Shown here: in pieces, positions 49,240 to 59,761 of the stretch
Position numbering within the stretch: the stretch's first letter is position 1
How the letters are laid out: each line of letters starts with the position of its first letter
Origin: Halohasta salina
Lineage (GTDB): Archaea; Halobacteriota; Halobacteria; Halobacteriales; Haloferacaceae
Assembly: GCF_024178165.1 (NCBI RefSeq)
Contig: NZ_JAMZIE010000002.1
Location: 310,001-374,000 of the forward strand
Direction of reading: 5' to 3'
DNA: 64,000 bases
Notes under the pieces: model-generated
What the model saw: only the letters and a program-made list of their open reading frames with translations
Databases searched by the model: none
Told to the model about the DNA's origin: nothing
Made by a program: the position numbers and the translations under genes

Positions 49240-50232
49240 ATGACGTTCCGTGGCGGTTCCGACCTGGCGACGGTGTACGACGACGCCCTCGAAGAGGGGT
49301 TCGGTCTGATCGCAAGCAACATCGCCGAACCGAACGTGCTGATCGGCCTGATCAAGGGGGCGGCACGCGTCGACTCCGATCTCCTCCTCCAGATGAGCAA
49401 TGGGGCCTGTAGCTTCGCGGGCAACGGCGATCCGATCGCTGGACTGCGAGTGATGGGCACCTATATCGAACGCATTGCCGCCCCCTACGATATCGGGGTG
49501 TTCCTGAACATGGACCATCAGACCGATCTCAACACCATCGAGCGACAGATCGAGCTCGAAATCCCCTCCTCGATCATGATCGACGCCTCCCACGACTCCT
49601 TCGAGGAGAACGTCGAAAAGAGCAAACAGGTCGTCGACTGGGTCGAAGCCGCCGACGCCGACATCCTCGTTGAGGCCGAACTCGGGACGATCAAGGGGGT
49701 CGAAGACGAGATCGTCGCCGAGGAGGCCTTCTACACCGACCCCGAGCAGGCCGTCGAGTTCGTCGACCGGACGGGCTGTGATCTGCTGGCGATCTCGGTC
49801 GGCACCCAGCACGGCGTCGCCAAGGGGAAGGATCTCGAACTCCGGCCGGATCTGACCGAGGAGATCCGGGACGCCCTGCGGGACCACGGGCTCGACACGC
49901 CACTGGTCCTCCATGGCTCGTCGGGTGTCCAGTCCGACCAGCTTCAGGAGATGTTACAGCACGGCATCTGCAAGGTCAACAAGGACACCCGGTATCAGTA
50001 CGAGTACACCCGGACGGCCTTCGACCGCTACCGCGAGGCGGCCGACGAGATCGTCCCGCCGGAGGGGATCGAAGACCACCGCGACAGCTTCTTCAACGAC
50101 GTCGACTGGGCCCCCAACAAGGACCGGTTCGATCCCCGTGTGGCCGGCCGTGACATCCGCGAGCGCATCGCCGACGTCTACGCCGCCCTCGCCGAAGTCG
50201 CCGGGAGCGCCGGTCGGAGCGAATTTAGCTAG
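49240..50232 (+). CDS. fba: Class II fructose-bisphosphate aldolase family protein
   Basis: 330 residues. The zinc-binding and catalytic pattern of class II aldolases is visible: [10 protein letters not shown] (metal/catalytic Asp region), [28 protein letters not shown], and the [22 protein letters not shown] phosphate-binding loops. The enzyme cleaves fructose-1,6-bisphosphate to triose phosphates; haloarchaea use class II aldolase in gluconeogenesis and fructose breakdown. Convergent with sopI, overlapping its end by four bases. Confidence 0.9.
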
Positions 50233-50975
50233 CTGGGATCGGCGCTCGCTGCCGGTGTGTCGGTCGACTCGGGTTCGGTTCCCCCGGATTCGGCTGCCAG
50301 CGGTTCGGTGCGGAACGCCGTTCGTTCCCGATAGACGAAGTAGACGTACGGCGTCTTGGCGACCACGTCAAGATAGGCGATGATCATCGCAGTGCCGGTG
50401 ACCGAAACGTACCCAACCCCGGCAGGACTGGCTATCCAGATCACCGGGTAGGCGATCCACAGCAGTCCAACGTGGTTCTGAAGGATGCGGAACAGCCGCC
50501 GCCGGCTGGGATTGTCCTGAACGTACCTCGGGAAGACGAGATAGAGGATGGCCAGCAACACGAGGTGGAACGCCGCCGAGATGCCGAACCCGATCCACGT
50601 CCCGATCCCGGTCGCGAGCGTCGCAGCGAGTCCCGTGGCGATCATCAGCGCGTCGGCGAGCCCGACGCCGACGACCCACTTTCTGGGTGCGCCGGCGACG
50701 TAACCGGCGTAGCCGACCAGGATCGGCGTCGTCACGATCCAGTCGATGTATCTGAACAGGTACACCTCGTTTTCGCCGACCGTGATCACGCCGACCTCCA
50801 AGACCATCAACAGGTAGGAGATCGCCGCGAAGCCGGGGATGACCAAGAGCCACTTGAACTGGCCGGTGGCGTTGTCGACCGTCTCTTCGCGGAGCAACTT
50901 GAGGGCGATCCAGATCCCCACGAGCAGGCCGACGAAGCTCGTCGTGTAGGCGGCGGTCACTGCCGGATCGGCCAT
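50229..50975 (-). CDS. sopI: Sensory rhodopsin I
   Basis: 248 residues, seven helices. Retinal Lys207 lies in [13 protein letters not shown] with Asp203 four residues before; the helix C motif [18 protein letters not shown] carries Asp78 (Asp76 of the Halobacterium protein). The proton-donor Asp of pumps is replaced by Tyr, as in sensory types. His168 in NHVGLLW matches the SRI hallmark His166, and [15 protein letters not shown] is the SRI helix G end, so SRI rather than SRII or bacteriorhodopsin. It signals orange/UV light to HtrI. TGATG overlap with htrI (one base) indicates coupled translation. Confidence 0.95.
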
Positions 50976-52504
50976 CAGAACCCGCCTCCCCTGGTCGCGC
51001 CCGTCGAACGACGTCTCCCGAGGTCGAACGTGTCGAGTTCACCGACCAGCTCGCGGGCGTTGCTATCGAACTCCTGGATGCGGCTCTCGATCCGCATGAA
51101 CCCATCGCGCTGGTCGGTGATCGCGTCGGCGACGCTGGTCGCGGTCGACTCCAGTTCCCGACTCATCTCGGAGACGTCGTTGGTACCGGCCGCAATCGTC
51201 TGGACGGTCTCGGCCTGATCGCCGGTCGCATCGCTGATCTCGGCGACCCCGTTGTCGATCTCCTCGACGGCGTCGCCGATCCGGTGGAGGTTCTCGACGG
51301 CCTCCTCGACGGTGTCGGTCCCCCGAGTCACGCGCTCGCGGGTCGACCGCACCGAGTCGGCGGCGTCGTCGGTCTGCTCGCGGAGGTCGGCGATCATCGT
51401 GGCGATCTCGTCGGCCCGCGTGCGGGTCTCCTCGGAAAGGCTCTTGACCTCGTTGGCAACGACCGCGAAGCTCTCGCCGGCGTTCCCGCTGCCGCTGGCG
51501 CGGGCGGCCTCCGTCGAGGCGTTGAGCGCGAGCATGTTGGTCTGGTCGGCGATGTCGTCGATTACCTCGACGATATCGGTGATCTCCGCGGTGGTCTCGG
51601 TGAGCGATTCGATCGTCTCGACGGTCTCGGTCGTCTCCCGTTCGATGGCCTCCATCTCCTCGATCGCTTCGGTCGCGGCCTCGCGTGCGTCGGCACTCGC
51701 CGTCGTCGTATCGTCGGTGATCTCCGAGAGATCGTCGGTCGTCGCGGCGATCTGTTCGGCCGCCGCCGACATGTTGTCGGTGTCCATCGCGATCTCTTCG
51801 AGCCGCTCGCGCTGTCGGTTGGCGTTGTCGGTGATCTCGTCGGTCGTCTCGACGGCTTGGTCGATCGAGCGCCGCATCTCGTCGCTCAGCCCGGCGATCT
51901 CGTCGGTGTCCCGCTGGATCTCGGTGGCGAACTCGTCGACCGCTCGCAGTGCCGTCGTGAGATCCTCGATAGCGCGGTTGAACTCCCGGCCGATGGTCGC
52001 CATCGCGGCGCGGTCTTCGTCGACGTCGACGCGCTGTGTCAGATCACCGCCGGCGACCTGCTGCATCGTCTCGGCGTAGCGTTCGGCCGTCTGCTGGTAG
52101 GCCGTCGCCAGCTGCTTTGCGTCCTGTTCAGCCTCTCTGGCCTCCTGTTGGGCCTGTTCTGCGGCCGACCGAGCCTCGCTTGCCCGGTCGATCTCCTCGG
52201 CCAGTGACCCACGCATCGTGTCGATAGCCGAGAACAGCCGCCCGAACTCGTCGTAGCGGTTCGACTCGATCTCGGTGTCGAGTTCGCCCTCGGCGATCGC
52301 TATCGCCCGGGTTTCGAGCTCCTCGATCGACGCGATCGTGTTCGTTCCCGTAATAGATCCCAACGCCAGCAGCCCGGCCCACGTCATCATGACCGCCGCC
52401 GCCACGCTCCCGGTGACGACCCCCACGACGGTTGTCATGCTCCCGGTGATGACGTACCCCAGAACCAGCTTCGTCCCGTACGAACCTCGCAACGCATGCC
52501 CCAT
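50975..52504 (-). CDS. htrI: Sensory rhodopsin I transducer HtrI
   Basis: 509 residues. Two membrane helices (about 11-31 and 35-52) with almost no extracellular loop, as in HtrI; HAMP-type signal-relay segments follow (~50-190, DLTQRVDVDEDRAAM), then a long coiled coil and the MCP hairpin tip (~319-361, with NMLALNAS and FAVVANEVKSLSEET). The region around residue 50 reads LGSITGTNTIASI; the residue equivalent to Glu56 of H. salinarum HtrI is Asn55. It forms a 2:2 complex with SRI, the gene directly downstream, and controls CheA. The start is near a TATA element at -27. Confidence 0.93.
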   Translation of the reverse strand: MGHALRGSYGTKLVLGYVITGSMTTVVGVVTGSVAAAVMMTWAGLLALGSITGTNTIASIEELETRAIAIAEGELDTEIESNRYDEFGRLFSAIDTMRGSLAEEIDRASEARSAAEQAQQEAREAEQDAKQLATAYQQTAERYAETMQQVAGGDLTQRVDVDEDRAAMATIGREFNRAIEDLTTALRAVDEFATEIQRDTDEIAGLSDEMRRSIDQAVETTDEITDNANRQRERLEEIAMDTDNMSAAAEQIAATTDDLSEITDDTTTASADAREAATEAIEEMEAIERETTETVETIESLTETTAEITDIVEVIDDIADQTNMLALNASTEAARASGSGNAGESFAVVANEVKSLSEETRTRADEIATMIADLREQTDDAADSVRSTRERVTRGTDTVEEAVENLHRIGDAVEEIDNGVAEISDATGDQAETVQTIAAGTNDVSEMSRELESTATSVADAITDQRDGFMRIESRIQEFDSNARELVGELDTFDLGRRRSTGATRGGGF

Positions 52505-58534: not shown

Positions 58535-58756
58535 CTAGTCGCTGGTGGGTGGCCGAACGGTCGACCGCTGGTCGGCCATCGGATCGGTCTCGCCGGGAAC
58601 GTTGACGAACAGCGCGTGTCCGATCACCAACACCGATGCCCCGGCTCCGACCGGCACGGCCAGTGTCAACTGTACGCCCGCCAGAAACAGGAGGGCGGTC
58701 AGTCCGAACAGCACAGCCGGAATCAGGCCAAGCACGTAGTCGTAGTACCGGGTCAT
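58535..58756 (-). CDS. Small two-helix membrane protein
   Basis: 73 residues from the ATG at 58756; a longer frame upstream is antisense to other sequence and lacks coding character. It starts MTRYYDYVLGLIPAVLFG, with two helices (~8-28 and 33-52) and a polar tail. Similar Tyr-rich starts occur in other haloarchaeal small membrane proteins. Function unknown. TATA-like AAATTATATGCC on the minus strand is about 30 bases upstream. Confidence 0.68.
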   Translation of the reverse strand: MTRYYDYVLGLIPAVLFGLTALLFLAGVQLTLAVPVGAGASVLVIGHALFVNVPGETDPMADQRSTVRPPTSD

Positions 58757-58840
58757 AATACATGACATACTATGGATGGGTGGCATATAATTTTTTCCAG
58801 TGGGCAACACACAGCCACGAGAGCTCATCGTCAAATGCGA

Positions 58841-58855
58841 CTCATAACTTATGAG
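58841..58855. promoter_or_regulatory. Perfect dyad CTCATAA-C-TTATGAG
   Basis: Seven-base arms around one base, 85 bases from the left gene and 214 from the right gene. Possible operator for either promoter; no factor is assigned. Confidence 0.4.
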
Positions 58856-59005
58856 ATGCAGCCGGCCGGAAACCGGCCAACGGAGCGGATTTCGTCGGGA
58901 CTGAGTCACTGACCAGCCGGGAATACTCGGTCGGACGGCTCCCGACGGTAGCTGGTCGGCACGGAGAGTCGACGAAACGTGGAGATTATAATCACAAAGA
59001 AATAG

Positions 59006-59021
59006 ATTAGAAATATCTAAT
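59006..59021. promoter_or_regulatory. DtxR/SirR-like dyad ATTAGA-AATA-TCTAAT
   Basis: Perfect 6-4-6 inverted repeat 48 bases before the GDT1-family start, overlapping a TATA-like AAATATC. Same geometry and related core (TTAGA versus TTAGG) as the dyad before the ABC ATPase. Overlap with the TATA element suggests repression when bound. Confidence 0.5.
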
Positions 59022-59068
59022 AGTCGCATGCACCGACGAGTCGACCGACGCTGGCACTGGAGGAACCC

Positions 59069-59761
59069 ATGGCTGGCTGGGTAGAGGTTCTGACCGTCGC
59101 GTTCGTCCTCCAACTGTCGGTGTTGCCCGGCGAGAAGGTCCAGTTCATCATCGCGGGGCTGTCGACGCAATACGATCCGTGGCTCGTGGTTGCAGCCGCG
59201 GGGACTGCGTTTGCCGGCTGGACCGGTCTGGAGATCCTCCTCGGGGAGGCGCTGAACACCGCACTTGAGCCCGTCTATCTCGACGCCATCACCGCCGCTT
59301 TCTTCGTGCTCTTCGCGGTACAGCTTCTCCGGTCGACCCCCGACCCGAACGGGCCGTCGGTCGATGACGGCGCGGTCGCTGACCCCACCGAAATCGACGT
59401 CTCGATTCGGGGCTACGAGGTGCCGGCGGCGCTTCGGGGGTTCCTCCCGATCTTCGCGCTGATGGCCGCCGGGGAGTTCGGTGACAAGACCCAACTCGTC
59501 ACGATCGGGCTCGCCGCACAGTACGGGGCCCATCCGGCGATCTGGGCGGGCGAGATGCTCGCCATTATTCCAGTGAGTGCCACCAACGCGCTGTTTTTCC
59601 ACCGGTTTTCCGGCCGATTCGACCGCCGGAAAGCCCATTTCGTGGGGGCAGGAATATTCGGACTGTTCGCCGTCGATACGATCCTCCAGATCGCCACGGG
59701 CTTTTCGATCTGGGAGACTGTCGTCGACCGGATTACAGCCGTCGTCTCGACACTCGTATGA
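59069..59761 (+). CDS. GDT1/TMEM165 (UPF0016) family cation transporter
   Basis: 230 residues, six to seven helices in two halves. The second half has the family motif E-x-G-D-K-T (Glu136-Thr141, GEFGDKTQL). The first half is degenerate (LPGEKVQF, Glu22-Lys23), lacking the Gly-Asp. UPF0016 proteins move manganese or calcium against protons; bacterial members export Mn. The asymmetry may reduce or change transport. The upstream dyad supports metal-linked control, though this is inferred. Confidence 0.85.
   Translation: MAGWVEVLTVAFVLQLSVLPGEKVQFIIAGLSTQYDPWLVVAAAGTAFAGWTGLEILLGEALNTALEPVYLDAITAAFFVLFAVQLLRSTPDPNGPSVDDGAVADPTEIDVSIRGYEVPAALRGFLPIFALMAAGEFGDKTQLVTIGLAAQYGAHPAIWAGEMLAIIPVSATNALFFHRFSGRFDRRKAHFVGAGIFGLFAVDTILQIATGFSIWETVVDRITAVVSTLV

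Follow-up and report, generated by a model that had tools for sequence, protein, structure and literature searches.

The htrI-sopI Locus

The window, by which we mean the whole stretch of 64,000 nucleotides of Halohasta salina DNA that was analyzed, is part of contig C18 of a genome of 3.04 Mb in 25 contigs that contains seven opsin-family matches. The minus strand of positions 50229-52504 holds two overlapping genes, first htrI (50975-52504), encoding a transducer of 509 aa, and then sopI (50229-50975), encoding an SRI-type opsin of 248 aa; at the junction, TGATG, the stop codon of htrI shares one base with the start codon of sopI. The pair is intact and probably translationally coupled. The opsin was assigned from its match to the Pfam model Bac_rhodopsin (PF01036, 1.4e-36), from its structural match and from its grouping with SRI in the trees described below, and the transducer was assigned from its Pfam HAMP (2.2e-9) and MCPsignal (3.1e-43) domains and from the structural match of its N-terminal membrane part. 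For both proteins the top match among solved structures was the SRI-HtrI fusion 9wxr, which was matched by the window SRI at 6.8e-61 and by residues 1-64 of the window HtrI at 1.2e-8 without gaps (LGSITGTNTIAS over LGSINAAETVAS). In NCBIfam the opsin had no match, and for HtrI no model scored above its cut-off.

The window opsin has the lysine and the aspartate of a type-1 opsin, with Lys207 (50355-50357; this and all codons below are on the minus strand) at the retinal-binding Lys205 position and Asp78 (50742-50744) at the Asp76 position, and it has the histidine of SRI, His168 (50472-50474), at the His166 position. The sequence-only reading had already paired Asp78 and His168 with Asp76 and His166, and the alignment agrees; SRI positions 73, 76, 106, 165, 166, 201, 205 and 210 are all kept in the window. 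A protein of this type would further be expected to absorb at long wavelengths, to have a slow photocycle and to give a two-photon near-UV signal. The transducer combines a membrane part, a HAMP domain and an MCP signaling domain with an adjoining sopI, and from this gene pairing and these domains we infer that it would bind its SRI and control CheA.

The GC3 values of the two genes (0.86 and 0.88) are like those of most neighboring genes. The locus has one promoter pattern and one terminator pattern, compared with 0.5 and 1.1 in shuffled sequences. A class II aldolase gene on the plus strand (49240-50232) overlaps sopI tail to tail by 4 bases (50229-50232). Elsewhere in the window, the frame at 58535-59638 has a GC3 of 0.66 versus 0.83-0.89 in the 11 other measured genes and is possibly foreign or not a gene.

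Sampling of Related Loci

We searched for SRI relatives in 391 genomes of the class, 54 of which had a match at 1e-30, and also in the family of the window (170 genomes), in four other families (146, 125, 26 and 3 genomes) and in three genera (18, 20 and 4 genomes); all of these sets overlap. The class search gave 62 places including the window, and 51 of the other 61 were fetched, the 10 left out having scores of 107-117 bits and 8 of them turning up again as SRII matches. Seven more places were fetched from the family and genus searches, and L095, L096 and L105 were excluded as repeats of L038, L039 and L097. The 59 loci that were read comprise 4 that are SRII-like and 55 that the trees place with SRI. 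In 52 of these 55 the HtrI residue could be read, the exceptions being L042 (no such part), L097 (contig end) and L102, where no htrI frame was found and the SRI match holds a stop. At L055 htrI is split over two frames, and its N-terminal piece was used for the residue count. For the HtrII sample, an SRII match at 1e-45 was present in 68 of 242 genomes and 40 of the 68 places were fetched; the 28 left out consist of 21 from one many-hit genus, 2 (G021 and G026) that are the loci L085 and L088, and 5 dropped for number. A plasmid collection gave two records with 49% and 30% identity, and a scan of named genomes gave three window-type loci and one distant opsin. In the titles and abstract openings of the open-access literature searched, we recognized no report of a non-Glu HtrI.

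The Glu56 Column of HtrI

In an alignment of 56 HtrI and HtrII rows, window residue Asn55 (codon AAC, 52340-52342) shares a column, without gaps, with Glu56 of L072 (LGSINAAETVASI), which we take to be the H. salinarum-type HtrI. This is where the sequence-only reading had placed the residue. Asn is found at this position in all five readable HtrI of the window's own clade, so Asn55 is not a sequencing or alignment accident. Across the 52 readable SRI-linked HtrI the column contains Glu in 29, Asn in 13, Ala in 6, Thr in 2 and Ser in 2, and the block Asn53-Ala-Ala-Glu56 occurs in all 29 Glu rows and in none of the 23 others, every one of which reads x-Gly-Thr-x. The window block is Thr-Gly-Thr-Asn, which lacks the Asn53-Ala-Ala-Glu56 of the classical clade; its Thr52 (52349-52351) stands at the Asn53 position, a suppressor site listed in a review (PMC3274258).

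The 40 fetched HtrII have Asn (29), Thr (4), Arg (4), Gln (2) or Asp (1) in this column and the four earlier SRII-like rows have Thr (3) or Ser (1), which gives Glu in 0 of 44 SRII-linked HtrII and Asn in 29 of 44. Asn is the most frequent residue of HtrII at the position and is present in 13 of 52 SRI-linked HtrI, including 5 of 5 in the window clade. The column is not freely variable, since it varies between clades and is constant within the Glu clade (29/29) and within the window clade (5/5 readable). The HtrII of Halohasta salina itself (L107, contig C21) has Gln at the Glu56 position. Four HtrII (L129, L130, L135 and L137) have Arg there, in the form GSRT or GSRS, a charge opposite to that of HtrI Glu56.

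Phylogeny and the History of Glu56

The joined tree contained 57 rows, with HtrI column 56 and SRI column 215 removed and L097 and L102 excluded. On this tree the 29 Glu rows form one clade (100/100), the window forms another with L038, L039, L040, L041 and L042 (100/100) outside the Glu clade, and a single change explains Glu versus not-Glu. The opsin-only tree (99 rows, quick method) also has a single Glu/not-Glu change, and it still does when six long rows are removed. The window SRI groups with SRI and apart from SRII with a support of 100/99 on the joined tree and 99 on the opsin tree, the outgroup branch being long; the root of both trees rests on SRII, which are joined by long branches. 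Under an equal-rates model on the opsin tree, the reconstructed residue is Asn for the SRI ancestor (0.94) and for the ancestor of the window and the Glu clade (0.84), and Glu for the ancestor of the Glu clade (0.99). The test did not reject (p-AU 0.154) a clade that unites the Glu and window-type rows and excludes the Ala-type ones, so we are unsure of the branch order of the window-type and Ala-type lineages.

As judged from these trees, the window pair is an early-branching SRI subfamily, a sister lineage outside the Glu clade, and Glu56 was acquired later, a single time, on the branch that leads to the classical SRI-HtrI clade. Asn55 looks like a retained, HtrII-like state. The description of the pair in the sequence-only reading as a clear orthologue of the Halobacterium system was right in that this is a real SRI-HtrI relative, but it goes too far, since the Glu clade does not include the window. 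Relative to the history implied by that reading the order is reversed, with Asn55 looking old and Glu56 looking new.

The Receptor Side and Interface Charges

Of the 55 opsins on the SRI side, 47 have His at position 166 and 8 have Gln, and in all 44 SRII the position holds Leu, Ile or Val; this pattern suggests an earlier origin for His166 than for Glu56. Position 199 is Tyr in all 44 SRII and in the window clade and Phe in all 29 Glu-clade SRI. The SRI of the window-type subfamily have an acidic residue at the Arg215 position, where the window has Glu217 (50325-50327): six of the seven have Glu, and the one with a broken htrI has Asp. This position is another of the suppressor sites listed in PMC3274258. 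It is Arg in 28 of the 29 Glu rows and His in 8 of 8 in the other Asn clade.

HtrI position 67 is Gln in all 29 Glu rows and Arg in all five window-type rows (Arg66 in the window, 52307-52309, at the Gln67 position); it is Glu in the Ala rows L043 and L044, both with SRI Arg215, and Gln in the third Arg215 Ala row, L099. Opposite charges are found at HtrI 67 and SRI 215 in the window clade (Arg/Glu, 5/5) and at HtrI 56 and SRI 215 in 28 of the 29 Glu-clade pairs. The counts at HtrI 56 and SRI 215 are strongly associated (Glu with Arg in 28/29, window-type Asn with Glu in 5/5, Asn of the other clade with His in 8/8), but the association runs along clade lines and Glu has a single origin, so it gives no independent evidence of contact. 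The residues at HtrI 67 and SRI 215 look as if opposite charges had been exchanged at the interface, close to its cytoplasmic end; this pattern is clade-bound, has an exception and is only suggestive. Among the 29 Glu rows the one without Arg at SRI 215 is L082 (G366), which combines a Glu56 HtrI with SRI Tyr215 and has a long branch; its genome also contains an Ala-type pair, L046. We also considered that SRI Glu215 compensates for a lost Glu56, and this is unsupported because on these trees the window lineage never had Glu56.

Eight loci (L058, L059, L069, L076, L078, L079, L083 and L084) form a separate SRI-side clade with HtrI Asn56, in which SRI residues 166, 210 and 215 are Gln, Trp and His in all eight, against His, Tyr and Arg in H. 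salinarum. This clade is changed at two of the listed inverting sites at once.

Distribution and Genomic Neighborhood

The window-type SRI was found in 7 genomes, which include that of the window, Natronomonas aquatica, Halovenus carboxidivorans and a Halovenus MAG, and the nearest relatives of the pair are in other families; three other genomes of the window's genus had no window-type SRI at 1e-40. When 10 neighboring window genes were searched for in stretches from five window-type relatives, only a histidine kinase matched, weakly, in two of them. Histidine kinases of that sort are common. That only this gene matched fits a putative mobile two-gene cassette, and lateral transfer of htrI-sopI is likely on this comparative evidence; the GC3 of the pair is not odd for its genome stretch.

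In the genus of N. aquatica, the locus L042/L092 (G040) keeps its SRI, with Asp at position 215, and upstream of it only HtrI residues 322-495 are detectable. The host genome of the window also contains, at C19:82925-83572, an opsin-like gene (L006) that by eye lacks the Schiff-base lysine and has Thr instead, and that lies close to a gene taken for a lycopene cyclase. Such opsin-related proteins are a known class (PMC4915679).

Predicted Signaling and Alternative Readings

According to the review PMC3274258, the dark SRI-HtrI complex consists of cytoplasm-connected (attractant) and extracellular-connected (repellent) conformers, inverting changes at HtrI Glu56, SRI Asn165 and His166 favor the extracellular-connected, repellent conformer, and suppressors at HtrI Asn53, SRI 'Arg84' and Arg215 restore the cytoplasm-connected one. 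SRI 84 is Leu in our alignment, so the 'Arg84' of PMC3274258 may be the mutant letter. Inverted orange-light mutants are also mentioned in a modeling paper (PMC2857822). The sequence-only reading had taken the sign of the phototaxis signal to be altered by Glu56 changes, and this much is stated in PMC3274258; the trees and the ancestral model indicate that the Asn of the window is not a change away from Glu56. Sign or color discrimination may differ here, but the residue at SRI 215, one of the listed suppressor sites, is different as well. The primary papers, which the review includes among its references, are Jung and Spudich (1998) and Sineshchekov et al. (2008).

By analogy with Halobacterium, light would isomerize the retinal in SRI, and the TM2-HAMP junction of HtrI would then move and change the activity of CheA. 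Glu56 in H. salinarum favors the cytoplasm-connected dark conformer; without it the dark complex might be mainly extracellular-connected, and one-photon long-wavelength light might produce a repellent, weak or mixed signal. For the window pair we tentatively predict that the dark state is extracellular-connected and that long-wavelength light evokes a repellent or mixed response. The pair looks like a natural intermediate because His166 is present and Glu56 is absent. Against this prediction, the other listed inverting sites, His166 and Asn165, are unchanged, and the listed suppressor sites HtrI 53 and SRI 215 have other residues that could restore the attractant state.

Almost as likely as a repellent or mixed response is that the pair has the same ancestry and is an ordinary orange-light attractant receptor, in which SRI Glu217 and HtrI Thr52 and Arg66 would hold the cytoplasm-connected dark state, Glu56 being just one means among several of setting that state. 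The conserved Asp76, Asn165, His166 and Tyr210 positions argue for this, as do the different residues at two listed suppressor sites and the opposite charges at HtrI 67 and SRI 215, which parallel those at HtrI 56 and SRI 215 in the Glu clade. These residue groups are clade-bound, however, so that the charges cannot serve as independent evidence for a contact, and Glu56 changes are reported to be inverting in H. salinarum (PMC3274258). The genome of the host points the same way as the conserved positions. It also has an SRII-HtrII pair and opsins that are, in our reading of their motifs, ion pumps; with pump-type opsins and SRII-HtrII present, a receptor that attracts cells to orange light would be of more use than a second repellent one.

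That the pair is silent or in decay, with Asn55 having no consequence, we consider very unlikely. The patchy spread over 7 genomes, with none in three others of the genus, and the relative L042/L092 without a detectable N-terminal part of htrI are what decay might leave, but both window frames are intact with GC3 values that match most neighbors, and the chromophore residues and signaling domains are conserved. Least credible of all is the history implied by the sequence-only reading, in which a pair that is classical in other respects lost Glu56 recently: few base changes are needed from Glu to Asn and the flanks (LGSI, TIASI) are alike, but Glu changes once on both trees with the window outside the Glu clade, the three preceding residues are also unlike the Asn-Ala-Ala of that clade, and the trees, including the opsin tree without the six long rows, give no support.

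The prediction of a repellent or mixed response could be extended into a broader evolutionary scheme, which we regard as possible but doubtful. Orange attraction would have arisen in steps, starting from a repellent receptor of the SRII-like kind, with His166 first and Glu56 later and once; non-Glu pairs such as that of the window would be natural 'inverted' receptors that make cells avoid green-orange light, and the ancestral state would be the one that the H. salinarum mutants inverted at Glu56 resemble. HtrI Glu56 is a residue whose change reportedly flips the sign of phototaxis (PMC3274258). If its gain was a single event and there are intact pairs that have His166 and lack Glu56, natural before-and-after pairs are available, and, if true, the origin of an attractant sensor from a repellent one would be testable with unmodified genes. 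A caution is that annotated SRI-HtrI pairs need not all signal like those of Halobacterium.

Comparison with Known Systems

The window pair is like the Glu56 inverting mutants of H. salinarum HtrI, as described in PMC3274258, in that Glu56 is absent and SRI His166 is kept. Unlike these mutants it is a natural lineage in which other interface residues differ too, above all SRI 215.

With the H. salinarum type (L072) and with 9wxr the window shares the htrI-sopI order with overlap, the HAMP and MCP domains, and the Asp76, Asn165, His166, Asp201, Lys205 and Tyr210 positions. It differs from the H. salinarum type in that its HtrI has Asn for Glu56 and Thr-Gly-Thr for Asn53-Ala-Ala, its SRI has Glu for Arg215 and Tyr for Phe199, and it falls outside the Glu clade of 29. 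With SRII-HtrII it shares a non-Glu residue at the Glu56 position (44/44 HtrII, 29 with Asn) and Tyr199 (44/44 SRII). It does not belong with SRII-HtrII: the window occupies a separate branch on the SRI side of the tree, and at position 166 it has His, whereas all 44 SRII have the hydrophobic Leu, Ile or Val.
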